Assembly (NCBI RefSeq): GCF_006440735.1
Contig: NZ_VFUA01000024.1
Location: forward strand, 1-64,000
Direction: 5' to 3'
From: Mesorhizobium sp. B2-7-1
GTDB lineage: Bacteria; Pseudomonadota; Alphaproteobacteria; Rhizobiales; Rhizobiaceae
Length of the DNA: 64,000 bases
Shown here piece after piece: positions 16,860-33,422 of the stretch; position 1 is the stretch's first letter, and each line of letters begins with the position of its first letter. The notes below the pieces were generated by a model that saw only the letters and a program-made list of their open reading frames with translations, did not search any database and was not told where the DNA came from. The translations under genes were made by a program, and so were the position numbers.

Positions 16860-16909
16860 CGGGCAACTTGGCGTCGAGGCGGGGGCCGCGGTAGTTCAAG
16901 GAGAGCTTG

Positions 16910-17800
16910 TTGAAAGGAATTATCCTTGCGGGTGGTAGCGGGACACGCCTTTATCCGCTTACGTTAGCAGTTTCTAAGCAAATACTGCCGATCTACGACA
17001 AGCCGATGATCTATTATCCGCTGAGCGTGCTGATGCTCGCGGGAATTCGCCAGATTCTGGTCATTTCAACTCCGCGCGACTTGCCGGTCTTTCAGGCTTT
17101 GCTAGGCGACGGTTCCGAATTTGGCGTTGAGCTTTCCTACGCCGAGCAGCCGCAGCCCAACGGCCTCGCGGAAGCCTTCATCATCGGCCGCGACTTCATC
17201 GGCAAGGACAACGTGTCGATGATTCTCGGCGACAACATCTATTTCGGCGATGGCCTGTCGCATCTGTGCCGCAGCGCGGCCGGCCGCGAAAGCGGCGCCT
17301 CGGTCTTTGCCTACTATGTCGACGATCCGGAGCGTTACGGCGTGGTTTCCTTCGACAAGGCCACCGGCAAGGCTCTGACGATCGAGGAGAAGCCGCAAAA
17401 GCCGAAGTCGAACTGGGCCGTGACCGGTCTTTATTTCTACGACAACAACGTGGTCGACATTGCCTCGACGATCCGCCCTTCGGCGCGCGGCGAGCTCGAG
17501 ATCACCGCGGTCAACAATGTCTATCTCGAGCGTGGCGAATTGCATGTCCACCGCCTCGGCCGCGGCTATGCCTGGCTGGATACCGGCACGCATGACAGCC
17601 TGCTCGAGGCGTCGTCCTTCGTGCGCACGATCGAGCATCGCCAAGGCATCAAGATAGCGTGCCCCGAGGAGATTGCGCTGGAGCAGGGTTGGCTCGGCGC
17701 CGACAAGGTTCTGGAGCGCGCCGCGCATCTCGGCAAGAATGAATATGCCGCCTATCTGCGCCGGCGGGTGGCCGATCTGATGGAGGATCAGGGTGCTTGA
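16910..17800 (+). CDS. rfbA: Glucose-1-phosphate thymidylyltransferase
   Basis: First step of dTDP-L-rhamnose synthesis: glucose-1-phosphate plus dTTP to dTDP-glucose. 296 residues with the nucleotide loop [17 protein letters not shown] at the N terminus, the sugar/metal segment [33 protein letters not shown] and [16 protein letters not shown], full length for RmlA. The start is a TTG: two TTG codons lie in tandem (16907, 16910), no ATG or GTG precedes the conserved LAGGSGTR, and AAGGAG ends six bases before the second, which gives the usual [10 protein letters not shown] terminus. The stop overlaps the rfbC start by eight bases, so translation is probably coupled. Confidence 0.95.
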
Positions 17801-18347
17801 GGTCAGGCCGCTCGGCCTCGACGGCCTGCTGGAGATCGTGCCGAAGCGCCATGGCGATGCACGCGGCTTTTTCAGCGAGACCTGGAATGCCGGACGCTTC
17901 GCCGAAGCCGGCATCGATCTCGTCTTCGTTCAGGACAACCATTCCTACTCCGCCGCCGCCGGCGTGCTGCGCGGCCTGCATTACCAGTTGCCGCCGCGCG
18001 CCCAGGACAAGCTGCTGCGCGTCATCAGGGGCAGCGTGCTCGATGTCGCGGTCGACATCCGCCGCGCCTCGCCGACTTTCGGCAAATGGGTGGCGCTGGA
18101 AATTTCCGCGGAAAAGGGCAACCAGGTCCTGGTGCCCAAAGGCTTCGCGCATGGTTTCGTCACGCTCGTGCCGGATACCGAGGTGCTCTACAAGGTGACC
18201 GACACCTACTCGCCCGAGCATGACCGGTCGATCCGTTTCGACGACCCCGCGATCGGCATCGACTGGCCGGCAATTGCCGGCGGCTTCCAGCTTTCGGACA
18301 AGGATCGCAACGCGCCCTTGCTCGGCCTGGCGGAGGTCTTCACGTGA
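17793..18347 (+). CDS. rfbC: dTDP-4-dehydrorhamnose 3,5-epimerase
   Basis: Epimerises dTDP-4-keto-6-deoxyglucose at C3 and C5. 184 residues, a single cupin-like RmlC domain: ARGFFSETW near the N terminus, the catalytic histidine in VLRGLHYQ (H63), [16 protein letters not shown], and the conserved [12 protein letters not shown] and [15 protein letters not shown]. It starts at GTG 17793 inside the end of rfbA, with GGAGG six bases upstream. Order rfbA-rfbC-rfbB-rfbD with overlaps or short gaps marks one operon. Confidence 0.95.
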
Positions 18348-18361
18348 GGGGGGACGGCGGC

Positions 18362-19527
<1,166 letters not shown>

Positions 19528-19531
<4 letters not shown>

Positions 19532-20505
19532 GGCTTGCCGTCACCGGACGCGAGGGCCAGGTTGCCGCAAGCCTGGTCGAGGCGGCGCGGGGCCGCGACG
19601 ACGTCGAGGTCGTCGCCGTCGGCCGGCCGGCGCTCGACCTGGCGCGGCCCGACACGGTGGTCGCGGCGCTGGAAGCTGCAAGGCCCGACATCGTCGTTTC
19701 CGCCGCCGCCTACACCGCCGTCGACCAGGCCGAGGACGAGAAGGACGTGGCCTTCGCCGTGAACGCAACCGGCGCCGGCAAGGTGGCCGAAGCGGCGGCA
19801 AGGCTCGGCGTTCCCGTCATCCATTTGTCGACCGACTATGTCTTCGACGGCACCAAGGACGGCGCCTATGTCGAGACCGACCCGACCGCGCCGCTCGGCG
19901 TCTACGGCGCCTCCAAGCTCGCCGGCGAGGAAGCGGTGGCGGCCGCCAACCCGCGCCATCTCATCCTGCGCACCGCCTGGGTCTACAGCCCCTTCGGCAA
20001 AAACTTCGTCAAGACGATTCTGAGGCTCGCCGCCGACCGCGACGAGATTTCGGTTGTAGCCGATCAATGGGGAAATCCGACATCCGCGCTCGACATCGCC
20101 GCTGCGATCCTGAATGCGGCGGCGAGGCTGCGCAACGACAGGAGTTTCGCCGCCTTCGGCGTCTATCACCTAGCGGGTGGCGGCGAGACCAACTGGAGCG
20201 GCTTTGCCCGTCACATCCTCGACACAAGCCGGGCGTTTGGTGGCCCGCATGCGACCGTGCGCGATATCGCGACGGCGGACTATCCGACCAAGGCCAGGCG
20301 CCCGGCCAATTCGCGGCTGTCGAGCGCGAAGTTCGCGGACGTATTCGGATGGCAGGCGGCGCAGTGGCGGGTAGCGGCGGAAAGCGTGGTTGCTCGCCTC
20401 ATGGAGAATGGGCGGAATTTCTATCCTCGCTTGGGAGACGGTAGCTCGAATCCGTTGCTGAGCCCGACGCCAAGCGGTTTGATGCCGCTCAAGGACAACA
20501 TCTAG
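19528..20505 (+). CDS. rfbD: dTDP-4-dehydrorhamnose reductase
   Basis: Last step to dTDP-L-rhamnose, the NAD(P)H reduction at C4. 325 residues. The N terminus [15 protein letters not shown] is the RmlD nucleotide loop. [12 protein letters not shown] (residues 64-75), STDYVFDG and Y/K in [10 protein letters not shown] are family signatures, as is the C-terminal [13 protein letters not shown]. It starts at GTG 19528, overlapping the rfbB stop by four bases (GTGA), with GGAAGG upstream. The C-terminal 25 residues ([19 protein letters not shown]) run past the usual end of the family. The next gene starts two bases after the stop. Confidence 0.95.
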
Positions 20506-20507
20506 CG

Positions 20508-23500
20508 ATGAATAAGCCGGCCAGCTTGCCGAAGAGTCATGTGTCCGAGGCGGACGCGAAATCGACGAATGCCGATAGGCGATCGCTTCGCCGGCTCTAC
20601 GACATGCACGAGGGTAAAGTTTCGGACAAATGGTCGATCTACCTGAACGAATACGGGCGGATTTTTTCGAAACATCGAAACAGGCCGGTTCGGATATTCG
20701 AGATTGGTATCCAGAACGGCGGGTCGCTTGAGATTTGGGCGAAATATTTCCCGCGGGCGAAGGTTATTATCGGTTGCGATATTGATCGGAATTGCGGTCT
20801 CCTGACTTTTGAGAGCAGTAAGATCAGCGTTGTCGTTGGTGACGCTAGCACCGAGGAGGTCGAAAGGAAAATTCTCGAGAGATCCGATCGGTTCGACATC
20901 ATCATAGACGACGGTTCGCACAGGTCGTCCGATGTTGTACGGACCTTCGCACGCTATTTTCCTCACCTGTCGGATGGCGGGATTTTCGTCGTGGAAGACC
21001 TGCATACAAGCTACCGGCAGAACTTCGAAGGTGGCCTCTATGATCCGTTGTCTTCGATGTCGTTCTTCAAGAGATTGCTTGATCTGGTCAATCACGAGCA
21101 TTGGGGCCTGGACCGTAGCCGAACGGATGCGCTGGCAGCATTCGCTGATCGGTATGGAATCGCGTTCGATGAACCTTCGCTGGCGTCGATTCACTCCATC
21201 GAGTTCCTGAACTCCCTTTGCGTCGTGACCAAACGCCCTTCCCGGGAGAATGTCCTCGGCCATCGCCATATAGCCGGCCGGGTCGCCGCCGTTGAGCAAA
21301 GCATGATTCATCTTGATGGCACGGATATGGATGCTCCCGATCAGGCTGAAAACCCTTGGTCGCTACGGTCGATGACAGTGGAGGAGGAGATTGTAGGCAA
21401 TCGAGAATTGGTCGAACGGCAAGCTGAGACCATCGAGACCCTCACCCGCGATCTTGCGGGATCGCACGAGCAAATTCAGGCCGGCGCGCATGCGTTGCAA
21501 ATGGCCAACGCGGACCTTCTGGCGACAGGCAGGGAACTGGAAAAAGCAAATGCGGAGCTCGTGGCAGGCTCTGAAAGTATCGCCTCGTTGAAGCACGAAA
21601 TCGAATTGATCCGCGGTAGCCGGACCTGGCGCTATGGATCGTTTCTGCAAAGACTTGCGTCAGTTCCGGGCACTGCAATGTTCTATGCTGGACAGACTGT
21701 TACGCTACGCGCAATGCATCATTTGGAAGGCGTGGCCCAAGGGAAGCGGGCAATAGAGTGGACAGCAACCGGCAACGATCCGCAATTCGAGCTGTTGTGG
21801 CCGGCTTCTCTGCCGCTATCTCCCGGGCACTACCGGCTCAGCGTGCGTGCGCTGGCTGATACAGGAACATTTGCCGACGCCCGTCTCTATGTCGACAGCG
21901 GCAGAGGATACAACGAAGTTGAACGGATCGATCTGCATTTTCGTTCGCACGGCAAAGGACGGGTCGCGGCGATTTTCCCGTTATATACGGGCGCCGCAAA
22001 ACTGCGTTTCGATCCGACCAGCAGTCCCGGCAAGATCACGATCCGCCATGTGCGGCTGCGCAGGATCGCCCGAATTGAATTTTATGCTCGGCTCATTAGC
22101 AGAATTATCGCCCGTCACATAAAAAATCCGAGATCCCTGCGACAGTCAGCCGGGCGTGCCGTAAAAATCTTGAAGGAACGTGGCTTGCTTGGACTGGCAG
22201 CCACGCTGCGGTCTGCCGAGGCGCGAGGTGCTCTGGGCAGCATTACCTACGACGGGTGGATTGCGCTCCACGACACCCAGACCGAACACGACATTGCGGA
22301 CTTGCGCCGGCAACTGACTCAGTCGGAGAACAAGCCGCTCATTTCGGTGCTCATGCCAGTCTACAATACGCCCGAGAAACTTCTGCGGGAAGCGATCGAG
22401 AGCGTCGTTGCTCAGATCTACGAGAACTGGGAACTGTGTATCGCCGACGACTGCTCGACAAAGCCGCATGTGCGGCGCGTCTTGAACGAATATGCAAAAC
22501 GCGATCCTCGTATCAAGATCGTCATGCGAGACGAGAACGGTCATATCTCTCGGGCATCCAATTCCGCTCTGGAACTCGTCACCGGTGAATGGGTCGCCTT
22601 GCTCGACCACGACGATGTTCTCCGCCCACATGCGCTGGCCGAAGTCGCGCTGGAAATCGATCGCCATCCTGACGCCGGACTGATCTACAGCGATGAAGAC
22701 AAGATCGATTCCGAGGGCCGGCGCTACGATCCCTGTTTCAAGCCGGATTTCTCGCGCGAGCTCTTCCGGTCGCAGAATTATCTGAACCATCTAACTATAC
22801 ATCGGGCGGAAAATATCCGCGCCGTTGGCGGCTGGCGCCCCGGGTTCGAGGGCAGCCAGGACTACGACCTCAATCTCCGCATCTTCGAACGTATCGGCTC
22901 GGAGAAAATCCGGCACATTCCGAAAGTGCTCTATCATTGGCGGGCGGTGGAAGGCTCGACAGCGCTTGATGGTTCGCAAAAGAACTACGCCTACACGGCT
23001 GGACTGCGTGCGCTGGAAGAGCATGTCGAGCGCATGAACGTTCCGGCAGCAGCTGAGGAAGCCCCCGGCGCGCCCTGTTACCGCCTTCGCTTCTTCGTAC
23101 CCGAGCCGCAGCCGCTTGTGAGCCTTATCATTCCAACGCGCGATAAGGTTGAACTCTTGCGCGGCTGCGTGGGGTCCATCCTCGAAAAGACCAGTTATGG
23201 AAATTATGAAATTCTCATCGTCGACAACGGTTCGGTTGAAGAGGAAACGCTCGCTTATTTCAGCGAGTTGGAAAAAGCGAAGAATGTCCGCGTGCTCCGC
23301 TACGACAAGCCGTTCAATTATTCGGCGATCAACAATTTTGCTGTCGGAGAAGCGAAGGGATCAATCATCGGTCTCGTCAACAACGACATCGAGGTGATCT
23401 CGCCCGACTGGCTGACGGAAATGGTTTCCTGGGCCATCCAGCCGGATGTGGGCTGCGTCGGCGCGAAGCTCTATTATGCCAATGATACGATCCAGCATGG

Positions 23501-23933
23501 CGGCGTGATTGTTGGACTGGGCGGGGTAGCATGTCATTCGCATAAGGATTTTCCGCGCGACCATCCAGGGTATTTTTTCAGGCTGAAGGTCCTGCAAAAT
23601 CTGTCGGCTGTCACGGCAGCCTGTCTCCTGATCCGCAAAAGTGTGTTTGAGGAAGTCGATGGTCTCAATGAGATCGACCTGACCGTCGCCTTCAACGATG
23701 TGGATCTCTGCCTGAAAGTCCGAGAGGCGGGTTACTCAAACGTCTGGACGCCCTATGCCGAGCTTTACCATCTCGAAAGCGTTTCTCGCGGCGTTGAGGA
23801 TGCTCCAGAAAAAATCGCACGGTTCAACAGTGAAATCGCGTATATGCAAAAAAGATGGAAGAAGGTCATTGAACGAGATCCCTTCTATTCGCCGAACTTG
23901 ACTAAGGGGCGCGAAGACTTCTCGCTCGGTTGA
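20508..23933 (+). CDS. Fusion protein: SAM methyltransferase - coiled coil - beta domain - two GT2 glycosyltransferases
   Basis: 1141 residues, cytosolic, no signal peptide. Residues 28-240: class I methyltransferase of the cephalosporin-hydroxylase/rhamnosyl-methyltransferase look, with RIFEIGIQNGGSLEIW (SAM loop) and IIIDDGSHRSSDVV. Residues 290-368: heptad-rich coiled coil. Residues about 405-520: beta-rich segment of unknown type. Residues 610-845: first GT2 domain (SVLMPVYNTPEK, metal motif LLDHDDVLRP, YSDEDKID). Residues 869-1120: second GT2 domain (SLIIPTRDKVEL, LVNNDIEVISP, AFNDVDLCLKVREAGY). It lies two bases after rfbD in the same operon, so I infer that it polymerises or caps a rhamnose-containing chain and methylates it. 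Processive chain-length-controlling polymerases with this logic are known (WbdD/WbdA-type), but this is not a recognisable orthologue. Confidence 0.85.
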   Translation: MNKPASLPKSHVSEADAKSTNADRRSLRRLYDMHEGKVSDKWSIYLNEYGRIFSKHRNRPVRIFEIGIQNGGSLEIWAKYFPRAKVIIGCDIDRNCGLLTFESSKISVVVGDASTEEVERKILERSDRFDIIIDDGSHRSSDVVRTFARYFPHLSDGGIFVVEDLHTSYRQNFEGGLYDPLSSMSFFKRLLDLVNHEHWGLDRSRTDALAAFADRYGIAFDEPSLASIHSIEFLNSLCVVTKRPSRENVLGHRHIAGRVAAVEQSMIHLDGTDMDAPDQAENPWSLRSMTVEEEIVGNRELVERQAETIETLTRDLAGSHEQIQAGAHALQMANADLLATGRELEKANAELVAGSESIASLKHEIELIRGSRTWRYGSFLQRLASVPGTAMFYAGQTVTLRAMHHLEGVAQGKRAIEWTATGNDPQFELLWPASLPLSPGHYRLSVRALADTGTFADARLYVDSGRGYNEVERIDLHFRSHGKGRVAAIFPLYTGAAKLRFDPTSSPGKITIRHVRLRRIARIEFYARLISRIIARHIKNPRSLRQSAGRAVKILKERGLLGLAATLRSAEARGALGSITYDGWIALHDTQTEHDIADLRRQLTQSENKPLISVLMPVYNTPEKLLREAIESVVAQIYENWELCIADDCSTKPHVRRVLNEYAKRDPRIKIVMRDENGHISRASNSALELVTGEWVALLDHDDVLRPHALAEVALEIDRHPDAGLIYSDEDKIDSEGRRYDPCFKPDFSRELFRSQNYLNHLTIHRAENIRAVGGWRPGFEGSQDYDLNLRIFERIGSEKIRHIPKVLYHWRAVEGSTALDGSQKNYAYTAGLRALEEHVERMNVPAAAEEAPGAPCYRLRFFVPEPQPLVSLIIPTRDKVELLRGCVGSILEKTSYGNYEILIVDNGSVEEETLAYFSELEKAKNVRVLRYDKPFNYSAINNFAVGEAKGSIIGLVNNDIEVISPDWLTEMVSWAIQPDVGCVGAKLYYANDTIQHGGVIVGLGGVACHSHKDFPRDHPGYFFRLKVLQNLSAVTAACLLIRKSVFEEVDGLNEIDLTVAFNDVDLCLKVREAGYSNVWTPYAELYHLESVSRGVEDAPEKIARFNSEIAYMQKRWKKVIERDPFYSPNLTKGREDFSLG

Positions 23934-23949
23934 CATCGGAAATATAGCA

Positions 23950-24633
23950 ATGGCCGAATTCCATTTCATCGAAGACTATGAGAAACATGTCGCGCAGCTC
24001 ATGCGCGATCATCCGATTGATGAGGCAATGTCGCTCGCGGTGGGCGGCGCCTATGACATTATCGGGCGCATCGAAGCCGAAGTCCTTATAAAAAACGGTT
24101 TGAGCGACGGGATGCGTCTTGCCGACATCGGTTGCGGGTCTGGGCGCACAGCGGTGGCGCTCGCTAGACGACTACGCATCGACTATGACGGATACGACAT
24201 TATTCAGGCTTTGCTCGATTATGCCGAGAGCAAGACCCCTCACAGCTACAAATTTCACATGAATCGAGCGGTGAAACTCCCAGCGCCGAATGCAGCGTTC
24301 GACTACATATGTGCCTTCAGCCTTTTTACCCACCTGCTGCACGAAGAGACGTTCATCTACATGCGCGATTGTCATCGTGTGCTGAAGACGGGGGGCAAAC
24401 TGCTCTTCTCGTTTCTGGAGTTTCGAATGCCCTCACTCTGGAATGTTTTTGAAGCGACCGTGAAACAATACGAGGCCAGTACACGGCCGCACCTCAACAT
24501 GTTCCTTGAGCGCGGGGCTATTGAAGTCTTTTCGGCTAGGATCGGCTTCAGGGTGGAGAAATTCATCGACGCCGACGCTCCGGTTCTCGATGAACATGCG
24601 CTCGGTCAATCAATATGCGTGATGGTGAAGTAA
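23950..24633 (+). CDS. Class I SAM-dependent methyltransferase
   Basis: 227 residues. SAM loop LADIGCGSGRTAVALARRL (about residues 57-75), acidic YDGYDII, then the Methyltransf_11 pattern FDYICAFSLFTHLLHEETFIYMRDCHRVLKTGGKLLFSF. It starts 16 bases after the stop of the large fusion gene with GGAA upstream, as part of the rfb operon. In this setting a sugar O-methyltransferase acting on the nascent glycan is the natural reading, but acceptor and position are unknown. The C-terminal third has no recognised domain. Confidence 0.82.
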   Translation: MAEFHFIEDYEKHVAQLMRDHPIDEAMSLAVGGAYDIIGRIEAEVLIKNGLSDGMRLADIGCGSGRTAVALARRLRIDYDGYDIIQALLDYAESKTPHSYKFHMNRAVKLPAPNAAFDYICAFSLFTHLLHEETFIYMRDCHRVLKTGGKLLFSFLEFRMPSLWNVFEATVKQYEASTRPHLNMFLERGAIEVFSARIGFRVEKFIDADAPVLDEHALGQSICVMVK

Positions 24634-24638
24634 ATCGG

Positions 24639-25427
24639 ATGCGATTCTTCCGGAAGTCTCCCCCAGCGTTAGAGCCGCGTACGAAGATGATAACCTCGGC
24701 GTTGAACCTTGCCGGAAAGGGCATCGAATATGGCCCGTTGCATGCTGCACTTTTGCGGAAGCCGCATTACGACGTTTCCTATGTGGACTATGCTGATCGG
24801 ATCTCGTTAGCCGAACATTATGCCAATGATCCTAACGTCGATGTCAGCCTGATCCCGGAAATTGACATCGTGACCGGTGGCAAGCTTATTTCTGAATTTC
24901 TTCCGAAGGAGTCCGTGGACTACATCGTGGCTTCGCACGTTATGGAGCATGTGCCTGACCTGCTGGGCTGGCTCGAGGCGAATCTGTATGTGCTCAAGCC
25001 CGGCGGCGGGATTGCCGTTGCATTTCCTGACAAACGCTACTGCTTCGACTTGAAACGAAAAAGCAGCATGGTTTCAGATCTCGTGGCGGCCTACATCGAG
25101 AAGCGGACGATGCCAAGCTTTCAGCAGATTTGCGACCATTTCTGGAATGTCAGTAACGCTAATGCCGTGGATTGTTGGAACAGTACTATTACAGCCGAAA
25201 ATGCTGAATACGTAATAGATAGAGAAAATATTTTAGATGCCCTTATAGATTTGAAAAGTAAAGGTGGGTATGTCGACTCTCATTGTTGGGTTTTTGCAGA
25301 CTTTGAGTTTATAGAATGTATAAATTCAATAAGAAGTATAATAAAAAGATATGATTTTGAAGTCGCATCATTCTATCCAACGCAGCCAAACACGCTAGAA
25401 TTCTATACGACTCTCAAAAGAATATAG
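24639..25427 (+). CDS. Methyltransferase-like protein with a compositionally mosaic gene
   Basis: About 262 residues. The middle carries a Methyltransf_11-type core (DYIVASHVMEHVPDLLGWL, then YVLKPGGGIAVAFPDKRYCF), but the N-terminal SAM loop is poorly formed (KGIEYGPLHAAL instead of GxGxG), so activity is uncertain. The ATG at 24639 has GGTGAAG upstream; an earlier ATG (24615) would overlap the preceding gene without a ribosome site. DNA composition changes inside the gene: 24901-24960 is about 57% G+C by hand count, 25201-25380 only about 29%. That points to a recombinant gene or a recent import. It is the last gene of the rfb operon, and its 3' end faces a convergent methyltransferase 71 bp away. 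Confidence 0.7.
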   Translation: MRFFRKSPPALEPRTKMITSALNLAGKGIEYGPLHAALLRKPHYDVSYVDYADRISLAEHYANDPNVDVSLIPEIDIVTGGKLISEFLPKESVDYIVASHVMEHVPDLLGWLEANLYVLKPGGGIAVAFPDKRYCFDLKRKSSMVSDLVAAYIEKRTMPSFQQICDHFWNVSNANAVDCWNSTITAENAEYVIDRENILDALIDLKSKGGYVDSHCWVFADFEFIECINSIRSIIKRYDFEVASFYPTQPNTLEFYTTLKRI

Positions 25428-25498
25428 ATAAATCGAGGGGCGAAAAGCGATGGTTTTGCGAAAGGCTTGGTTTGAACCTTAGTCTTGATTTGGCTATC

Positions 25499-26281
25499 TC
25501 ATAATACCTTGCCCGCTACAAGAGCCAATGCAGGCCCGTTCGGATGTCCAGGATGGTCAAATTCGATCGCCTCCACGGTGAAGCCGAAATCGGCGATCGC
25601 CCGCATCAGGGAGTCACGGGTAAGCCAAAACGCCCATGGCTTAGCGCCGCCGCAAAAGCCAGCCCATTTGAGTGCTTCCTGATAATTGCGCTTGCATACC
25701 GTATATGGCTTACCGTCGACCTCGATCTTGTACGGCTTCTCGAACTGCTTAGCGAGATTTCCCCGGGTGCGCAGCGACTCATCGTAGTAGTGCGTCCAAA
25801 GGAAAAATTTATCGGACACGCGCGCAATGTTGCCAAGAAATTCAATAGGGTGGGTCATATGGTAGAGTATGCCTGACGCTAGGCATATATCGAAGCGTTC
25901 GCTGTTTTCCGACAGATACTTCATCGCGTCGCCGTAGAGAAATCGAGCACGGCTGAGATCGAAGATCTCCTTGACGCAGAGGCATTTCAGGTAGGATCGC
26001 GAATTGGCCTCGACAGCGAGTATCGATTCCGCGCCCGCTTCATGCATCATGTAAGTGTGTCCTGCCTCCAGCGGTCCGAGCTCCAGAATACGCTTGCCGG
26101 CGAATCCGCCGGTGGTTTTTGAAAGCCAGTCGATGCGGGCGTCTTCAAACAGGGCGGCGCTGCCGGGAGTCGTCGTCGCTCCGCCCGTTGCCGGAAATTT
26201 GGACGACCATTCGTCTTTGAAGATATCAACCACATTCTGGGCGCTTGGTGCAGTCGCGACATACGCGTCTAGAATGTCCAT
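25499..26281 (-). CDS. Class I SAM-dependent methyltransferase
   Basis: 260 residues. The SAM-binding stretch is KRILELGPLEAGHTYMMHEAG, with acidic VEANSRSYLKCL, followed by FDICLASGILYHMTHPIEFLGNIARVSDKFFLWTHYY. This resembles the DUF1698/CmoB-like and glycan-associated methyltransferases found in O-antigen clusters. GGAGG sits just before the ATG at 26281. It is transcribed alone on the minus strand, converging with the rfb operon; 242 bases separate it from the YfhO-like gene upstream in transcription order, and I see no other gene in that gap. The substrate is probably a glycan sugar, by context only. Confidence 0.8.
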   Translation of the reverse strand: MDILDAYVATAPSAQNVVDIFKDEWSSKFPATGGATTTPGSAALFEDARIDWLSKTTGGFAGKRILELGPLEAGHTYMMHEAGAESILAVEANSRSYLKCLCVKEIFDLSRARFLYGDAMKYLSENSERFDICLASGILYHMTHPIEFLGNIARVSDKFFLWTHYYDESLRTRGNLAKQFEKPYKIEVDGKPYTVCKRNYQEALKWAGFCGGAKPWAFWLTRDSLMRAIADFGFTVEAIEFDHPGHPNGPALALVAGKVL

Positions 26282-26523: not shown

Positions 26524-29037
26524 TTAAGCAGCTGCGGCTCTATTGCTGGTTCGAGGCGTGGACATTCCGCCATTCAAAATGACTAGAAGCACAACCGCAG
26601 CTACAAAGCCAGCGATGCAGAGTTCCAGCGTTCTCAATAATTGACTACTGTCATAGTAGAAGCGAATTCTGCCTGGCCCGTTCACCTCCACCGCGGGAAA
26701 AAAATCCAGGAACTTTTTGAGCTCTACAGGTTTTTCATCCAGCATCGCTCGCCAATGCCGATTGGTCCGAATGGGGAAAACGACCCATCCGCGCGCTGCG
26801 CCCAGATATTCCACCGTTAGGTCATCCGGTCGATACGCCGCAAGGCGCACTGCGCTAAAATCTGCCTCCGGTTGTCCGCTTAGTCCATTCACATAATAGC
26901 CGGAACCTGAGATTGTGCGATTTTCGATGACATCAATGCCCGGCTCTATCGATGTGATCGAGAAATTCGGGGGGAGACGATTTTTTCCGACAATCTTGAT
27001 TTTGGGGGCGCCCGGGAATGTATTCGACCCGATTTGATACGTTGCTCCTCCAGCGGTTTCGAAAGCCCAGGCGCTGAGCATCTTCTGGCTGCCGGGTTTG
27101 GTCATTGAAATAACGTACTGGTAAGTTCCAGGCGAAAGAGGTACGTCTCGATTGAAATCGAATGTGGCGAACCGGTTGTTGCGTATTGCTTCCGGTGGCA
27201 ATTCAGCACGGGCTACGAGTTGGCCATTTTGGTACAGTTCCAATATGGACGCCGACGGTGCGTAGTCCTGATCGTATGTTGCAAATAGTACCTGAAACTT
27301 AGTGGCAATGATCGGTTTATTGATTGTCAAGTTACCTTTGAGCGCGCCCGAATTTAGGAGGGCAGTAGGTCTATGACCTGCTCCGGAACTTTCATAGGCT
27401 ATTTCAGTGCAGCTGTCTCTCACAAGTAAGAAGCGGACAGCAGTATAGATAATACCCAAGCTGGAAAAATTGATGTCGGAGCATTGAATGATGGAGGCCG
27501 TATACGTTGTCTGATACGAAGGTGCTATGTCCGTAGCTATCTTGTTTTGCGCATCGGTACGGAAACCATGAGCAAATAGCTCTGGCAATCGATAATTTGA
27601 CAAAACTCCAGACGTGACGAAGCTATCGTCAGCAATGACGCTTTGGCCCGGAAGAATCTTAGATAAAACATAGGACAGTGATGGCGTTTCTGGAAAAAAG
27701 GTTTCAATATCGGGGCGCGCATTAAATTCCCTGAACCAATACCCAAGATTGGTTGCTTGGAATGTGAACATAAGTAAAAGAAAAAATAACTTATAGTTGT
27801 ATTTAAGATTTAACCGTGACAAGAAAGTTATGGAATAAGCTGACAATATAGCCATGGATAGGCCAACCAATACCGAGGCCCTGCTCCACGGATTGATGCC
27901 AAATCCCGGAATTAATTTTATGATCTCGGCTGGTGCCGCGCCGAATGCGGTCGCGAACGTGAATACTGCCAAAATTAAGCCAAAAATAGAAAACCGATTT
28001 GGTAACCTAATCAGTAGAAATAACGCAATGATCGTCAGAATAGCGGCAGGAATGCCAGCCGAAAAGGTACGCTCAACACCCAAATTGTTAACAAAATCAA
28101 ACCCAAAAACGTTAACGATGTCATACGGAGTGAATATCGTTCCGCCGGATCGGATCGATAAATCTGTTGAATTGAGAATGTCTCTAATTTGTAGAAGGCC
28201 GGGAAGAGTGAGGAGTGTGCCTGCAACACCTGCGCACCCTAGTGCAAGAACTCGTCTCATGGCTGGTCGACTGACGCCGATGTCCCGAAATTCGGCAATA
28301 AGGACTATGGTTCCAAGCATCAGGGATGAGATAACTCCGAGGACGGCTACAAATGGAAAGCCGCCTAGACCTATCAAGGCCACACTGAAAATAAATCCGA
28401 ACGCCCATCCTAAGTGGCCTGTTTGCCAATACCGAAGCTGACTAGCGAGAACCCATGGAATAAGGGCGCTTGCTGTCAGGTGCGGCCAATGGGCCCAAGC
28501 GATGTTAAAACCGCAAAAGGCGAACACCATAGCGCCAAAAACTGCCGCCCAACGATTGCTGAACATGAAGAACAGCAGAAAATAGGTGCCGAAGGCAGCG
28601 AGCAAATAGTTAGCCAGAATTGAAAATGTGTAACCCATAGCCTCGTTCGGCGTGAGGGCGTAAATTAGAAAGGGTATGGAAAGGCCTTCGTAGATCGGAG
28701 ACTGAATACCTGCTGCGCCCAATTGATGAACCGGGTTCCACAGTGGGATATGTCCTTCCCACAGCTCTCGCCTAAACTCTCGCCAGTTTGGTAGGCGGTG
28801 ATCCAATGCGTCAGAACGCTCTGCATTGATCAGCGGAGTGTCAACGCCGGCATTGTCCCACCCTGGATAGGCCAGCAAGAGATCCATAGGCGCCAGCGTT
28901 TGCCGAAAAGGGTTCACGCCCACGATGCCCAAGACAAGCACGAGAAGAAGCATTGTAGAAGTAAGGTGCCGCAAAAACGGAGTCTGTTCCGGCTGGTTGT
29001 CACCTTGCGCGAGTGCTTTGCCGATCTGCGTGTTCAT
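26524..29037 (-). CDS. Large YfhO-like (GT-C type) membrane protein
   Basis: 837 residues. The N-terminal 460 residues contain about eleven to twelve hydrophobic helices. The first periplasmic loop carries PMDLLLAYPGWDN and HIPLWNPVHQLGAAG, which match the PLWNP loop of YfhO-family membrane glycosyltransferases, and FNIAWAHWPHLTASALIPW follows. Residues about 465-800 form a periplasmic beta-rich region, closed by one last helix (about 803-823) and a short Ala-rich tail. YfhO proteins are GT-C enzymes that use polyprenyl-phosphate sugars to decorate cell-wall polymers. The start overlaps the preceding flippase-like gene by four bases (ATGA). The coding sequence is unusually A+T-rich, particularly 27400-28200. 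The family call is moderate and the function inferred. Confidence 0.75.
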   Translation of the reverse strand: MNTQIGKALAQGDNQPEQTPFLRHLTSTMLLLVLVLGIVGVNPFRQTLAPMDLLLAYPGWDNAGVDTPLINAERSDALDHRLPNWREFRRELWEGHIPLWNPVHQLGAAGIQSPIYEGLSIPFLIYALTPNEAMGYTFSILANYLLAAFGTYFLLFFMFSNRWAAVFGAMVFAFCGFNIAWAHWPHLTASALIPWVLASQLRYWQTGHLGWAFGFIFSVALIGLGGFPFVAVLGVISSLMLGTIVLIAEFRDIGVSRPAMRRVLALGCAGVAGTLLTLPGLLQIRDILNSTDLSIRSGGTIFTPYDIVNVFGFDFVNNLGVERTFSAGIPAAILTIIALFLLIRLPNRFSIFGLILAVFTFATAFGAAPAEIIKLIPGFGINPWSRASVLVGLSMAILSAYSITFLSRLNLKYNYKLFFLLLMFTFQATNLGYWFREFNARPDIETFFPETPSLSYVLSKILPGQSVIADDSFVTSGVLSNYRLPELFAHGFRTDAQNKIATDIAPSYQTTYTASIIQCSDINFSSLGIIYTAVRFLLVRDSCTEIAYESSGAGHRPTALLNSGALKGNLTINKPIIATKFQVLFATYDQDYAPSASILELYQNGQLVARAELPPEAIRNNRFATFDFNRDVPLSPGTYQYVISMTKPGSQKMLSAWAFETAGGATYQIGSNTFPGAPKIKIVGKNRLPPNFSITSIEPGIDVIENRTISGSGYYVNGLSGQPEADFSAVRLAAYRPDDLTVEYLGAARGWVVFPIRTNRHWRAMLDEKPVELKKFLDFFPAVEVNGPGRIRFYYDSSQLLRTLELCIAGFVAAVVLLVILNGGMSTPRTSNRAAAA

Positions 29038-29996
29038 GCACTCTTCCCCCTTCGCAATATCAACTCCGCCAATGCGACCAGGCAGTCACCAAGAACGGTG
29101 ACTAGCCGATTACCGAGAGCCACCGTGGTCGCCGCTGGAGCCGGCAGGCCCGCGGCGGTGAGGCCCATGATCAAGACGGCCTCGCGCACACCAAGTCCCC
29201 CTGGTGCTCCCGGAACTACGAAGCCAATGAGCCAGGCGGCTGCACCTATGCCGATCAACTCCGGAACGTGGCCCGCATCGCTCAAAGTTCTCAAAAGCGC
29301 AACGATCAGCAACCCGTTGCCGATGAAAAACAGTGCATAGAGAAGAAAAGCTTCGACCGAGACGATAAGTGCTCCGCCGCCGATGCCGGCGGTTCTCAAC
29401 CGGAACAAAAGCATCGTCCCGATCGCAAGCACCAAAAGGCCGGCGGCGATAAATCCCTCAATCAATACTGGATTATCGGGCAATACGGGGCTGCCGGGGG
29501 CATACTGCGCATACGCATCCCGGAAAACCGGCCACGCCAGCGAGGCTCCCAAAACCCCAGCGGTAAGAACAATGACGGACAATTCCCCTATCTGCGCAAA
29601 GGTAAGTGCCTTGTTCGATGTCCCGAGATTACGGGCGAGGGCGAAGCGACCAACCATATGGAGCACGTTGCTCGGCAGGTATTTGTAGATTTGCGTCCTT
29701 CCGAAAATGGCAAGCGCAGGACTCAATCCAAGCGATGGTCCGTCGATGGCAACCAGGAACCGGTACCAGGCGATGCCGACCAACTGCAGGATGACGGCAT
29801 AAGCGCCAGCGCATCCCAATACGACGATCAAAAAAAGCGAGGAGATGAGCTGTCGTTGCAGATCGCCGAACGAGCGATGGATCGCCATCCCCACGAAGAC
29901 AAGCGCTGCGAGACTGATGGCCAGGCCCCCGAGGCGAACGATGGACTTAAGCTTGCTGCCTTTGGCTGGCTGTGCCGTTAGCATTGTCTCAGTCAC
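29034..29996 (-). CDS. Flippase-like membrane protein (lysylphosphatidylglycerol synthase TM-domain family)
   Basis: 320 residues with about eight transmembrane helices and no soluble domain. Family signatures: FGRTQIYKYLPSNVLHMVGRFALAR and the C-terminal GFVVPGAPGGLGVREAVL, the hallmark of the LPG_synthase_TM/UPF0104 family. Members are found in MprF (lipid flipping) and next to polyprenyl-linked glycosylation genes such as AglD-type proteins. It overlaps the methyltransferase before it by eight bases and the YfhO-like gene after it by four, so the three are translated as a unit. I infer that it moves a polyprenyl-phosphate sugar across the inner membrane; this is not proven for the family. 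Confidence 0.82.
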   Translation of the reverse strand: MTETMLTAQPAKGSKLKSIVRLGGLAISLAALVFVGMAIHRSFGDLQRQLISSLFLIVVLGCAGAYAVILQLVGIAWYRFLVAIDGPSLGLSPALAIFGRTQIYKYLPSNVLHMVGRFALARNLGTSNKALTFAQIGELSVIVLTAGVLGASLAWPVFRDAYAQYAPGSPVLPDNPVLIEGFIAAGLLVLAIGTMLLFRLRTAGIGGGALIVSVEAFLLYALFFIGNGLLIVALLRTLSDAGHVPELIGIGAAAWLIGFVVPGAPGGLGVREAVLIMGLTAAGLPAPAATTVALGNRLVTVLGDCLVALAELILRRGKSA

Positions 29997-30612
29997 TGCG
30001 GCAGAGGACCATGGTCCAGGGAAGTGGTTTACGGACTGTCACGATCTTCAGCGACTTGGACAGCAAATCAATGAAGGATGTGGACGACCAATGCTGAATG
30101 TGGCCAGGCGTGTTTCCGAAGTCTGAAATGTATTTGCCTCTTGCAACGTTAAGTGCGCGCCAGACCGGCTCTCGTGGCACGCTGACAAGAAGGTAGGGTT
30201 TGGCGAGCGATTTCAGCACCGCTAGCGCTCGTTCCGTATCGGGAACATGCTCGAGAACTTCGCAGCATATCACCAATTCGGCGGAAGCCGCTTCCGCGGT
30301 CAGGTCGAAAAGCGAGCGTGTCTCGAACATCGGTTCCAGGCCACGCTTGGCGCATTGCTCGTTAGCCTCCGAGACGCTGACGGATTCTAGGTCGCTGCCG
30401 CGGACGTTCCACCCTCGATCATGAAGGCGCATGGAGAGATTTCCTTCGCCGCAGCCGACCTCGTAGGCGTTGCGAACGCCTGTTTCTGACGTCAGCATAT
30501 CGAAGCTGCTCAGAAAGCCATCCATGAGGTAGCGTGCGATCGGGTTCCGGGTATTGTACTTGTCGTAGTAATTGCCTGGAACGTTGTCATAGGCTGCAGG
30601 TGCTTCGGTCAT
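29989..30612 (-). CDS. Class I SAM-dependent methyltransferase
   Basis: 207 residues, compact UbiG-like core: AYEVGCGEGNLSMRLHDRGWNVRGSDLE (SAM loop and acidic residue), then ELVICCEVLEHVPDTERALAVLKSL and YLLVSVPREPVWRALN. The start codon directly follows the stop of the GT2 gene (TAA then ATG) and the 3' end overlaps the flippase-like gene by eight bases, so it belongs to the same tightly packed operon. A methyltransferase in this position would modify the sugar on its polyprenyl carrier or a precursor of it. That role is inferred from context. Confidence 0.85.
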   Translation of the reverse strand: MTEAPAAYDNVPGNYYDKYNTRNPIARYLMDGFLSSFDMLTSETGVRNAYEVGCGEGNLSMRLHDRGWNVRGSDLESVSVSEANEQCAKRGLEPMFETRSLFDLTAEAASAELVICCEVLEHVPDTERALAVLKSLAKPYLLVSVPREPVWRALNVARGKYISDFGNTPGHIQHWSSTSFIDLLSKSLKIVTVRKPLPWTMVLCRSD

Positions 30613-31632
30613 TTATGCGGTTCCGCTTATCTTGCCCGTCTTGATTTCAGATGCTTCGCGGTCGACCGTGAACGAGCGGAGCAATGCGCCTCCGCCATGC
30701 TCCTGTTGTAATTGCCTGATCCTGATTTCCTCGAGAAGTTGGCGATTGACCGCGATCAGTTCGGATAGGATGCCGCCCATGGCCAGGATGCCGGCAAGCG
30801 CAAGCAAGGCGCTGGAAAGAACAAGCGACTGGATATTGCCATTGCCTTCGCCTTCCAGGTACCGGAAAAGGAACCGGATGATCATGATCAGCCCCGGTGT
30901 CGCGACAATAGCCGCGCATACCGAGAAGAAGCGCAACGGGCTGTAGACGACAAAAATCCTCACGACCGTTATCAGGGAGCGCCGCACATAGCTCGGTATG
31001 CTCTTGACCAGCCGCGAGGGTCGAAGATCGCTGTTTACACGAATGGGCACGGAGGTGATCGGAATATCCCTACGTCCCGCCTGGATGATCGTTTCGAGCG
31101 TGTAGGTGTAGCGGTTGAAGACGTTTAGCTGTATCGCCGCGTCGCGGTGAATGGCACGGAAACCGCTCGGCGCGTCGGGAACCGTCGTGCCGCTGGCAAG
31201 TTTGACGACCAGACTGCCAAGCTTCTGCAGGAATTTCTTGGTGGGTGAAAAATGCTCTATCTCGCTGATCGGCCTTGCGCCGACGACGATTTGAGCCTTT
31301 TTCTCCAAGATCGGACGCACGAGGTCAGGAATGCAGGAGGCGTCGTACTGGTTGTCCGCGTCGGTGTTTACGATAACATCGGCGCCGAGTTTCAACGCGG
31401 TTTGAATGCCTGTCATGAACGCCTTGGCAAGCCCCTCATTGTGGGGCAGCGAGACCACGTGATCCACACCGTTTTGCGAAGCAACCTCGCCGGTCCGGTC
31501 CGTGGAGCGATCGTCGATCACGAGCCACTCTACCGTATCGAATCCCTCGACTTGACGTGGGAGATCGGCAAGCGCGACCGCAAGCGTACTCTCCTCATTC
31601 AAGCATGGGATCTGAATAATAAGCTTTGACAA
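30613..31632 (-). CDS. GT2 glycosyltransferase with two C-terminal membrane helices (polyprenyl-phosphate sugar synthase type)
   Basis: 339 residues. GT2 domain: KLIIQIPCLNEESTLAVAL, VIDDRSTDRTGEVA, VNTDADNQYDASCIP (DxD), with PDAPSGFRAIHRDAA typical of dolichol/polyprenyl-phosphate sugar synthases. Two hydrophobic helices follow (about residues 228-252 and 270-295), as in GtrB/ArnC-like enzymes, which make polyprenyl-phosphate-linked sugars at the inner membrane. The frame is open to 31728, but the extra N terminus is not domain-like. I chose the TTG at 31632 (reading MSKLIIQIPCLNEE), preceded by GAGGGCGG. First gene of the GT2-methyltransferase-flippase-YfhO operon. The 268 bases upstream (to the Wzt stop) hold no gene I can see. 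Confidence 0.85.
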   Translation of the reverse strand: MSKLIIQIPCLNEESTLAVALADLPRQVEGFDTVEWLVIDDRSTDRTGEVASQNGVDHVVSLPHNEGLAKAFMTGIQTALKLGADVIVNTDADNQYDASCIPDLVRPILEKKAQIVVGARPISEIEHFSPTKKFLQKLGSLVVKLASGTTVPDAPSGFRAIHRDAAIQLNVFNRYTYTLETIIQAGRRDIPITSVPIRVNSDLRPSRLVKSIPSYVRRSLITVVRIFVVYSPLRFFSVCAAIVATPGLIMIIRFLFRYLEGEGNGNIQSLVLSSALLALAGILAMGGILSELIAVNRQLLEEIRIRQLQQEHGGGALLRSFTVDREASEIKTGKISGTA

Positions 31633-31900: not shown

Positions 31901-32623
31901 TCAGGCGGCTTCCATTGGCGTCATGGCTATCGACTCCACCCGGCCATGGCGAAGCGTCAACGTCTTCGTGCAGACGCGTTCGATCAGGCTCTGGTCGTGG
32001 CTTGCCAGCACGATAATGCCGGCCTTCTCCGCCAGTTCGTCCATGCGCCGTTTGGCCTTTTCCTGGAAGGAAGCGTCGCCGGCGCTGATCCACTCGTCCA
32101 TCAGAAGGATTTCTGGCTCAAGTGCGGTTGACGCAGCGAAAGCCAGTCTTGCAGCCATACCCTGGCTGTATGCTTTGAAGGGCAGGTCGATGAAATCGCC
32201 GAGTTCGCTGAACGCGATGATCTCTTCCATCTTCTCTTCGATTTCGGCTTCCGTCCAACCGCTGATCAATCCTCTCAATACGATGTTCCGCCGGCCTGTG
32301 GCTTCAGGACGAAATCCTATGTTGATGTTGAAGAGGGCATCGACCTTGCCATCTATAGTGATGTTTCCCTCAGAAGGTTCATAGATCCCGTAGAGCACTT
32401 TCAGCAGGGTTGTCTTGCCGGCTCCATTCGGACCGACAAGGCCCAACCGATCGCCTGCCTTCAACTCGAAACTGACACCGTCCAGAGCTTGGACGAACTG
32501 CTTCCTTCCCGAACTGGCAATTCTGCCGCCCGTATCGTTCATGCGCCGGTCTGGCGCGGAAAGGGTTAGCTTTTCGTGCAGCTTATAAACCAGGCTGACG
32601 TTATCCAGCTTGACGGAAACCAT
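31901..32623 (-). CDS. wzt: Polysaccharide ABC exporter, ATP-binding subunit
   Basis: 240 residues, a single nucleotide-binding domain: Walker A GPNGAGKTTLL (about 64-74), a degenerate signature YSQGMAARLAFAAST, Walker B ILLMDEWISAGDASF and H-loop VLASHDQ. DEWIxAGD and SxGMxxRL are characteristic of the Wzt/KpsT/TagH branch that exports O-antigens, capsules or teichoic acids. There is no C-terminal carbohydrate-binding domain (Wzt proteins with one reach about 400 residues), so chain-end recognition is not built in. It pairs with the permease seven bases upstream and energises transfer of the finished glycan-lipid to the periplasm. Confidence 0.93.
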   Translation of the reverse strand: MVSVKLDNVSLVYKLHEKLTLSAPDRRMNDTGGRIASSGRKQFVQALDGVSFELKAGDRLGLVGPNGAGKTTLLKVLYGIYEPSEGNITIDGKVDALFNINIGFRPEATGRRNIVLRGLISGWTEAEIEEKMEEIIAFSELGDFIDLPFKAYSQGMAARLAFAASTALEPEILLMDEWISAGDASFQEKAKRRMDELAEKAGIIVLASHDQSLIERVCTKTLTLRHGRVESIAMTPMEAA

Positions 32624-32630
32624 TGAACAC

Positions 32631-33422
32631 TCAGATCATGAAGACGACCTGCCGGCGATATCTGCCAAGCAGCATCAATGCAATAACCCATGCGGCCACC
32701 GTAAAGGCGCCGGTTAAAGCAAAATCATGTCCCGGAAACTCGTCGCTAAGGATGGGATGGCGTACAACCTCCAGGAAGCTCGTAAACGGATTCCAGTTGT
32801 ATGCGTATGTTTGTATGGGGTCTTGCCCGTTGTTTACCCAGAAGACGGGCGTAAAGAACATCCCGACCCTCATCAGGTTGCCGACGATGAATTCGCTGTC
32901 AGGGAAAAATGCGCCGGTGAATGCGAAAATTGCAATGATGGCTGGGGTGGCCAGCAGGATCAGAAGCAGTCCCGCGAGCGACCAGAGCCATGCCGTCGTC
33001 AGCGCCGGTCCGCTGATCAGCAGAATGACTATGCATCCGGCAATGGCATAGCCCGCGCGAATCGCCGACTGCACCGTCAAACGCATCACATAGACGAACA
33101 AGGGCAGCGTCGTGCCTTCGATGAAGCTCTGCTCACGTTTGAACAGCGACACGCTCACGGTTATGACCTCCATGAGGTAGAACCACACCATGAGACCAAT
33201 TGCGACATAGGCGGAATACCCGGCCGCATCCTTGCCTGCGGGCTGGAACACGAAGACGAAAGTGCCGACGAAGGCAAGGTAGTTCACCAGCAGCCAGAGC
33301 GGTCCGAGCGTGGTTCGCCGGTGCTGGTCACCGATATCTTCGTGAGCGAGGGCAATCCATACCCTTCGCAGCTTCATCGCCCCGAAGATATCGTCGAGAG
33401 CGCCGTTCAGTGTCGAAATCAT
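32631..33422 (-). CDS. wzm: Polysaccharide ABC exporter, permease subunit
   Basis: 263 residues, ABC2-type membrane domain with six hydrophobic segments. The N-terminal amphipathic stretch IALAHEDIGDQHRRTTLGPLW is the Wzm/KpsM signature preceding the first helix, and NLMRVGMFFTPVFWVNN and NWNPFTSFLEVVRHPIL are also typical. The gene ends eight bases before wzt, one transcription unit. With Wzt it forms the exporter for polyprenyl-diphosphate-linked glycan. It is divergent from the CapD-like gene across a 388-base gap. Confidence 0.92.
   Translation of the reverse strand: MISTLNGALDDIFGAMKLRRVWIALAHEDIGDQHRRTTLGPLWLLVNYLAFVGTFVFVFQPAGKDAAGYSAYVAIGLMVWFYLMEVITVSVSLFKREQSFIEGTTLPLFVYVMRLTVQSAIRAGYAIAGCIVILLISGPALTTAWLWSLAGLLLILLATPAIIAIFAFTGAFFPDSEFIVGNLMRVGMFFTPVFWVNNGQDPIQTYAYNWNPFTSFLEVVRHPILSDEFPGHDFALTGAFTVAAWVIALMLLGRYRRQVVFMI

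Follow-up and report, generated by a model that had tools for sequence, protein, structure and literature searches.

A rhizobial O-antigen locus cassette joining a GT2 glycosyltransferase, a methyltransferase, an MprF-fold flippase candidate and a GT-C-like protein

In a stretch of 64,000 nucleotides of Mesorhizobium sp. B2-7-1 (contig NZ_VFUA01000024.1, positions 1 to 64,000; hereafter the window), four minus-strand open reading frames running from 31632 to 26524 encode, in this order, a family 2 glycosyltransferase (GT2), a methyltransferase (MT), a flippase candidate and a large GT-C-like protein. We believe that this cassette is probably a side-chain glycosylation system resembling Gtr and CsbB-GtcA-YfhO, in which a sugar would first be methylated while bound to its polyprenyl carrier and then be flipped by an MprF-type flippase. 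The gene order, the protein families and folds, the co-conservation of the genes and the exchangeability of the fourth slot are supported by the results given below.

Cassette genes and predicted products

All four frames are open. The genes, and the two parts recognized in the large protein, are as follows (aa, amino acids; all on the minus strand).
30613..31632, minus strand: GT2, polyprenyl-phosphate sugar synthase-like, 339 aa, with predicted C-terminal membrane helices (PF00535, E 1.8e-22)
29989..30612, minus strand: predicted class I S-adenosylmethionine (SAM)-dependent MT, of the kind called MTq below, 207 aa, ATG start (PF13649, E 5.4e-13)
29034..29996, minus strand: MprF-type flippase candidate, 320 aa, GTG start (PF03706, E 1.5e-4, below the cut-off)
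26524..29037, minus strand: GT-C-fold transferase candidate with YfhO-like layout, 837 aa, ATG start (STT3 8agc, Z 18.9; AftD 6w98, Z 18.2)
27718..28980, minus strand: putative multi-pass membrane region (about residues 20-440) of the GT-C-like protein (predicted model and structural comparison)
26653..27432, minus strand: beta-rich, probably periplasmic domain of the same protein, residues 536-795, partly carbohydrate-binding-module-like and followed by the last membrane helix (model; mixed matches)

The GT2 gene starts with TTG, preceded by GAGAGAGAGGGCGGA. No base separates it from the MT gene, the MT and flippase genes overlap by 8 bases and the flippase and large-protein genes by 4, and the tight packing described in an earlier note made on the same DNA (junctions of 0, 8 and 4 bases) is therefore borne out by the coordinates. 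The G+C content of the four genes is 49-58%, versus 62% for the window.

The GT2 matched the GtrB-like O-antigen conversion family phrog_841 (E 4.9e-18), and the profile of its family matched the solved structures of DPMS (5mlz, E 2.1e-15) and ArnC (8vxh, E 3.4e-8). Residues D40, D41 and D91-A-D93, whose aspartates we take to be catalytic, were invariant in an alignment of 12 rows, and on the basis of these aspartates and of the matches to solved members the protein is predicted to be of the DPMS/ArnC type. Together with the PF00535 match and the hydrophobic C-terminal stretches, this agrees with the polyprenyl-phosphate sugar synthase-like GT2 of the earlier note. The two membrane helices that the note had given it fit most relatives and not the window copy, since a simple hydropathy count found two such stretches in the former and three in the latter. 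The second gene, also read before as a methyltransferase, can keep that name in view of its PF13649 match and of the motif EVGCGEG, invariant in 13 rows; the nearest curated family was UbiG (TIGR01983, E 3.4e-12, below its cut-off). What is known of this protein is its SAM motif and the position of its gene; a polyprenyl-linked sugar may be the substrate.

The model predicted for the flippase candidate (pLDDT 77, pTM 0.78) retrieved MprF in all of the first five Foldseek rows. In a second structural comparison, six MprF entries, one of them from Rhizobium etli, reached Z scores of 20.3-22.8 and the next row dropped to 6.7, the top MprF row being aligned over 281 residues with a root-mean-square deviation (rmsd) of 3.8. 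A PDB profile search with the flippase family gave no match; it was the comparison of folds that found MprF. Judged from the model, the window protein has the fold of the MprF flippase domain. The positions invariant in the 18-row alignment include Q102, K105, Y106, P108, G258, P265, G267, G269, R271, E272, R297 and D304. Pfam and NCBIfam scans disclosed no GtrA match in the four cassette genes. The GtrA flippase class is not universal in three-component systems, as MATE and Wzx types have been described (PMC11127046, PMC8035078).

Assignment of the large protein by sequence failed: no Pfam family exceeded its cut-off, NCBIfam gave no match at all, and neither phmmer nor the family profile (six weak rows, all at E 0.8 or higher) found a solved relative. 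A comparison of folds was therefore needed. The model shows helices as far as about residue 440 and then, up to about 535, a segment that is poorly modelled; a beta-rich part reaches 795, and a final helix follows. The best structural neighbours were STT3 (8agc; Z 18.9, 349 residues, rmsd 4.7) and AftD (6w98; Z 18.2, 514 residues spanning 20-823, rmsd 9.1), the latter also covering the C-terminal half, followed by AglB (3waj, Z 17.2), DPY19 (7zlh, 16.3), Pmt4 (9i5k, 14.9), ArnT (5f15, 14.8), PglB (3rce, 14.4) and EmbB (6x0o, 11.3). Because these top rows are uniform and the scores exceed the level stated for helical proteins that lack a clear counterpart, we assign a GT-C fold to the protein on the strength of a moderate model, an assignment that a deeper alignment would firm up. 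The matches of the beta part were mixed, with a CBM6 chain (2cdo_B, E 0.026) in Foldseek and carbohydrate esterase domains, phage and other beta-sandwich proteins in the second comparison. Many membrane helices, an extracytoplasmic beta domain and a last helix make up, in the model, what we take to be the layout of YfhO.

Conservation of the cassette and exchange of its fourth gene

The YfhO-like gene was present in four close relatives (loci L002-L005, which by contig coordinates are those of genomes G280, G218, G270 and G216 and were counted once). In L002, L003 and L005 all four genes occur in the same order, with identities of 87-90% for GT2, 81-89% for MT, 74-80% for the flippase and 70-75% for the large protein; the L005 contig ends inside the gene for the latter. 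L004 keeps GT2 (87%) and the large protein (72%), and between them it carries a GT4-like gene that scores 299 bits against the GT4 of L045, a different MT (25% identical to that of the window) and a different flippase (30%). In a Limoniibacter locus (L006, the same as L064) all four genes are found in another order, at 41% (large protein), 59% (GT2), 49% (MT) and 31% (flippase) identity. The cassette adjoins wzt in the window and L002, and rmlD in L003 and L005, a shift of sides as would be expected of a mobile unit.

Among 144 Mesorhizobium genomes, 22 had a GT2 of 48-100% identity, the other matches listed being at 33% or less; L046 and L047 (26-27%, paralogue level) had been excluded before counting, and the L028 contig ends at the GT2 gene, which leaves 21 assessable loci. 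An MT gene stood directly beside an LPG_synthase_TM (LPG_TM) flippase gene near GT2 in 18 of the 21, and GT2, MT and flippase came in a row in 16, including the window and L002-L005. Thus, the check on co-conservation of the four genes, set beforehand, gave a positive result: with L006 added, GT2, MT and flippase are consecutive in 17 loci, a GT4 gene being interposed in L004, L030 and L035. In L043 and L044, GT2 was accompanied by a 563-aa membrane protein and, as judged by eye, a GT4-like gene, with an FkbM-type MT and a flippase nearby on the opposite strand.

The window, L002-L006 and L045 have a YfhO-like protein in the fourth slot. In L029, L031, L032, L034 and L036-L039 its place is taken by a family of membrane proteins with a 580-600-aa core (in some on the opposite strand and not adjacent), and in L030 and L035 (741-763 aa) and L033 (716 aa) by proteins of other sizes. 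Comparison of the YfhO-like set with the 580-600-aa-core family by hhalign returned a probability of 3%, and the latter family had no solved relative (one row, E 0.27). Those of its members scanned with Pfam (L029 and L036, no row; L031, one marginal row) had no match above the cut-off, nor did the proteins of 762 aa (L030, two marginal rows), 716 aa (L033) and 562 aa (L043). Since a single family is unsupported and Pfam matches are lacking, we refer to the fourth-slot proteins other than the YfhO-like ones as large membrane proteins and not as GT-C enzymes. As this slot is exchangeable, the conserved unit is GT2-MT-flippase plus a variable large membrane protein. By analogy, this arrangement resembles that of Gtr systems, in which the donor makers are constant and the final transferase varies.

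Immediately upstream of their cassettes, three Mesorhizobium loci (L033:9808-14105, L036:10133-14446 and L039:3521-7807) carry a paralogous second set, consisting of a GT2 (28% identical), an adjoining 228-aa MT-like gene and, on the opposite strand, a 702-707-aa membrane protein. In L047 (6154-9371), a GT2 paralogue (26%) adjoins a 734-aa membrane protein whose N-terminus, by eye, we take to be GtrA-like; it is possibly a flippase-transferase fusion.

Pairing of methyltransferase and flippase

In every one of the 21 loci having an LPG_TM flippase near GT2 (the window, L002-L006, L029-L039, L043-L045 and L061), an MT gene was found directly upstream of the flippase gene on the same strand, overlapping it or separated by no more than about 10 bases according to the frames listed, in which start codons are uncertain. 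About five kinds of MT can be told apart: MTq (13 loci), MTb (one, plus a second copy in L032), MTc (two), MTd (three) and FkbM (two). This number is approximate because the MT of L061 is nearest to MTd by score (82 bits versus 40 for MTb) and had no firm place in the tree. Identities were 18-31% among MTq, MTb, MTc and MTd and 29-39% within MTd; L044 was outside the identity matrices, and its flippase and FkbM-type MT were identified by similarity to those of L043.

As a control, other PF03706 genes of relatives were examined at 30 loci (29 genes, as L069 and L085 are pieces of one), taken from the 35 matches listed; two loci without a flippase frame (L070 and L092) were dropped from the upstream control, leaving 28. 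A relaxed MT motif occurred within 1.5 kb upstream of the flippase in 19 of the 21 cassettes and in one of the 28 controls (L067), where it lay 918 bases off and read ALEIGPGD, which we take to be typical of rRNA methyltransferases. When the entire control loci were scanned on both strands, 12 of 30 contained the relaxed motif; in eleven it was ALDLGTNN, presumably a Ppx/GppA motif, and one of these had a second string. The strict motif, present in 9 of 21 cassettes and none of the 30 controls, is a weak test since it finds only 9 of the cassettes. Ten upstream control frames submitted to Pfam yielded no MT; they were MerR, GT21, PMT_2 (twice), GT2, a peptidase and four frames without family. 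We reject a chance association of the four genes on the grounds of the co-conservation and this control of other PF03706 genes.

The kind of MT was linked to the presence of a GT4 gene. Where GT4 lies in the cassette (L004, L030, L035 and L045) or adjoins it on the opposite strand (L061), the MT is MTc or MTd, and in the 14 cassettes without GT4 it is MTq or MTb. On a simple reading, the MT would act on the lipid-linked glycan before flipping, modifying the first sugar where this is the only one and another residue once GT4 has added one.

Three further observations were made. In L084 (genome G1073), a GT2 gene is directly upstream of an LPG_TM flippase gene with no MT between, which may be a minimal GT2-flippase pair. 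In the Mesorhizobium loci L071 and L076, other PF03706 genes follow a PMT_2 (GT-C-type) gene, a hint that these flippases serve glycosylation. Finally, L032 (10465-11685) has two different MTs in tandem between GT2 and flippase, and L033 keeps only the first kind; the tandem could possibly give a doubly methylated sugar.

Locus context

The cassette starts 268 bases 3' of wzt, itself preceded by wzm, and the locus contains the four rml genes together with other sugar genes.
31901..32623, minus strand: Wzt, putative O-antigen exporter ATPase (NF050108, E 1.7e-66, below its cut-off)
32631..33422, minus strand: Wzm, putative O-antigen exporter permease (NF050109, E 8.2e-31, below its cut-off)
16907..20505, plus strand: rmlA, rmlC, rmlB and rmlD, predicted dTDP-L-rhamnose genes (TIGR01207, TIGR01221, TIGR01181 and TIGR01214, all above cut-offs)

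By this gene content, it appears to be an ABC-transporter-dependent O-antigen locus with rhamnose. Outside the cassette, three more methyltransferase genes are found at 23950-26281 and a 1141-aa MT-GT2-GT2 protein is encoded at 20508-23933; the counterparts in L002 of two of the further methyltransferase genes of the window (20508-26281) look broken or mosaic.

Proposed mechanism and alternatives

We propose that the GT2 would load a sugar onto undecaprenyl phosphate at the cytoplasmic face and that the MT would methylate this lipid-linked sugar. The resulting methylated polyprenyl-phosphate sugar would then be flipped by the MprF-fold protein, and at the periplasmic face the GT-C-fold protein, binding the acceptor through its periplasmic domain, would transfer the sugar to the O-polysaccharide that is exported by the Wzm/Wzt of this locus. 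In this scheme, we infer which sugar is used and where it is methylated, which lipid is flipped, what the acceptor is and in which order the steps run. The idea of a make, methylate, flip and transfer route parallel to GtrB/GtrA/GtrC goes back to the earlier note, and it fits the families, folds, packing and co-conservation described above.

Several observations weigh against the proposal. The window flippase candidate scored 21.8 bits with PF03706 (LPG_synthase_TM), for which the cut-off is 33.4. Of six relatives, four exceeded this value (L030, 53.8 bits; L045, 53.3; L061, 49.5; L004, 37.0), that of L043 missed it (30.3) and that of L036 had no match. Similarly, the large protein matched PF09586 (YfhO) at E 0.028 and 13.2 bits (cut-off 28.5) over residues 731-795 alone. 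Its model is moderate (pLDDT 59, pTM 0.51), and residues 35-86, where the catalytic acid would be sought, were modelled at a pLDDT below 50; the conserved acids D52, D76 and D79 were invariant in an alignment. Therefore, what stands of the LPG-synthase-TM-type flippase and of the YfhO-like or GT-C-like protein with a periplasmic domain, as they were called in the earlier note, is the MprF flippase-domain fold of the first and the fold and layout of the second, and not membership by Pfam threshold. The gene arrangement also varies, the YfhO-like gene being first in L006 and convergent in L045, and within the genus L040-L042 had no MT or flippase of the kinds searched around GT2. A class-wide search (E<=1e-40) found the GT2 in 8 of 289 genomes, its own included, and we read eight loci (L056-L063) from six of the seven other genomes, leaving out G921. 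Seven of these loci lacked the combination of MT and LPG_TM flippase (L062, one of the seven, ends too near the GT2 gene to judge), and only L061 had both; thus, outside the family, the GT2 mostly occurs without them. Moreover, the link between MT kind and GT4 comes from few independent lineages, and block exchange between O-antigen loci would give the same pattern. Lastly, the flippase kind does not track the MT kind: the flippases that go with MTq share 24-39% identity across groups, and those of the three MTd-like loci share only 19-25% with each other.

This last point also favours the alternative that survives best, although we regard it as distinctly less probable than our proposal. It keeps the same make, flip and transfer steps and has the MT acting elsewhere: the enzyme would methylate a nucleoside diphosphate-sugar, the backbone of the O-polysaccharide or the non-reducing end of this polymer, in the last case as a cap that ends the chain, and it would share the operon only through the clustering of O-antigen genes. 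MTs are indeed common in O-antigen loci, Pfam finding four further MT domains at 20508-26281 of the window (a point that also tells against our proposal), and the two MTs between GT2 and flippase in L032 suit this explanation. Methyl end caps read by an additional domain of the exporter ATPase, of the WbdD type, are known (PMC11127046). Yet in all 21 loci the gene immediately upstream of the flippase gene is an MT gene, whatever its kind, and none of the 28 controls had an MT-like motif that near. In addition, the Wzt of the window has only 240 aa, which, given the size of a cap-binding domain, leaves little room for one.

A further possibility, which we think rather unlikely, is that methylation is a licence to flip, the MprF-type flippase recognizing the methyl-capped polyprenyl-linked sugar, with MT and flippase forming one exchangeable cartridge. 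When the glycan is lengthened by GT4, the cartridge would be swapped for another MT with its own flippase. The comparison of L004 with L003 and L005, in which GT2 and the GT-C protein are kept and the MT-flippase pair between them is replaced, speaks for it; the lack of correspondence between flippase and MT kinds across all loci speaks against it. If true, methylation would be a quality-control step, and the cassette would exemplify, in bacteria, the use of MprF-type flippases for decorating polymers.

It is still less likely that the product of GT2 and MT is a free glycolipid, flipped by the MprF-like protein for the membrane itself, with the large protein acting on lipid A, core or lipid. 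UPF0104/LPG_TM proteins do accompany glycolipid synthesis, as in gpgSDF of Pseudomonas aeruginosa (PMC12713373), phospholipids are flipped by MprF (PMC5898192), and PF03706 genes of relatives also adjoin a GT21-like or GT2 gene (L068 and L084). In contrast, a GT-C fold with a carbohydrate-binding-like domain and the position in rml/wzm/wzt loci point to a polysaccharide acceptor. Transfer of the PMT/STT3 type to a secreted protein instead of the O-antigen is very improbable, in spite of STT3, AglB, PglB, DPY19 and Pmt4 being among the best structural neighbours, considering the O-antigen locus, the strain-to-strain exchange of the fourth slot and the match to AftD, a polysaccharide-acting GT-C enzyme with carbohydrate-binding domains (PMC8035078), whose alignment extends over the C-terminal half as well.

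Relation to known systems

Among the closest known counterparts of the proposed route is CsbB-GtcA-YfhO of Bacillus, Listeria and Staphylococcus, which acts on lipoteichoic and wall teichoic acids and likewise brings a flippase together with a synthase of undecaprenyl-phosphate sugar and a large GT-C protein of the YfhO type (PMC8035078, PMC7389260). There, the flippase is of the small GtrA/GtcA type, whereas that of the cassette has the MprF fold and the cassette adds an MT; furthermore, the YfhO-like protein of the window is under the Pfam cut-off, and the cassette sits in a Gram-negative O-antigen locus, presumably with a different acceptor. O-antigen conversion by GtrA-GtrB-GtrC shares the make, flip and transfer logic, and the cassette GT2 matches the GtrB-like phrog_841, but GtrA is replaced by an MprF-type flippase, an MT is present and the GT-C class is another. 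In the pentofuranose three-component system with GT136 of Citrobacter O1/O2, a polyprenyl-linked donor, a flippase and a GT-C enzyme decorate an ABC-transporter-dependent O-antigen after polymerisation, and the flippase belongs to the MATE family, showing that the flippase class can vary (PMC11127046). That system differs from the cassette in its synthase, its MATE flippase and a donor path without MT.

In Haloferax, AglD is a glycosyltransferase that carries a UPF0104 domain, for which the role of an MprF-like flippase has been predicted (PMC5898192), AglP is an MT contributing to a dolichol-linked glycan, and AglS transfers mannose from the flipped dolichol carrier (PMC4335974); compared with the cassette, these are archaeal, have a protein acceptor and do not form a single four-gene unit. 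The gpgSDF operon of P. aeruginosa joins a glycosyltransferase, a sugar-modifying enzyme and a UPF0104 flippase candidate (PMC12713373), but its GT4 acts on phosphatidylglycerol, a deacetylase takes the place of the MT and there is no GT-C protein.

Every part of the cassette therefore has a precedent, including GT2, flippase and YfhO systems in Firmicutes (PMC8035078) and MprF-like UPF0104 flippases in archaeal glycosylation, predicted in 2015 (PMC5898192). The cassette had been presented as a candidate new one, and this holds for the joint arrangement with an MprF-type flippase and an MT and not for these components: no publication bringing together YfhO, methyltransferase, flippase and glycosyltransferase was found in the literature searched, which leaves most subscription journals outside its scope, and we did not find the joint four-gene arrangement in print.

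Direct proof of flippase activity is lacking for the proteins of three-component glycosylation (PMC11127046). MprF-type proteins have so far been suggested for a role in glycosylation mainly by genome context, and the cassette joins one of them to an MT and a GT-C transferase candidate in a small rhizobial operon, in which the natural swaps between strains are directly testable. It could also explain the origin of some O-methylated sugars of rhizobial lipopolysaccharide, whose methyl groups have been linked to adaptation (PMC6274867). M. loti O-chains carry 2-O-methyl-6-deoxytalose (PMC6274867), a residue that nothing ties to this cassette.

Distribution beyond close relatives

The YfhO-like gene is rare, being found in 5 of 146 genomes of the genus search, 2 of 199 of the family, 4 of 398 of the phylum and 2 of 385 of the class, each count including the own genome. 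The phylum and class counts contain one weak match each (L053 and L054), with no GT2 or flippase of the cassette kind at these loci. Among the loci of the class-wide GT2 search, L058 (3186-4040) has an MTd-like MT in the GT2 locus but apart from GT2, and no LPG_TM flippase of the kinds searched. The related loci L060 and L061, from two other class genomes (family f13), pair the GT2 with proteins akin to the L043 membrane protein of 563 aa, and L061 has, beyond the set of L060, an MT, a flippase and a GT4.

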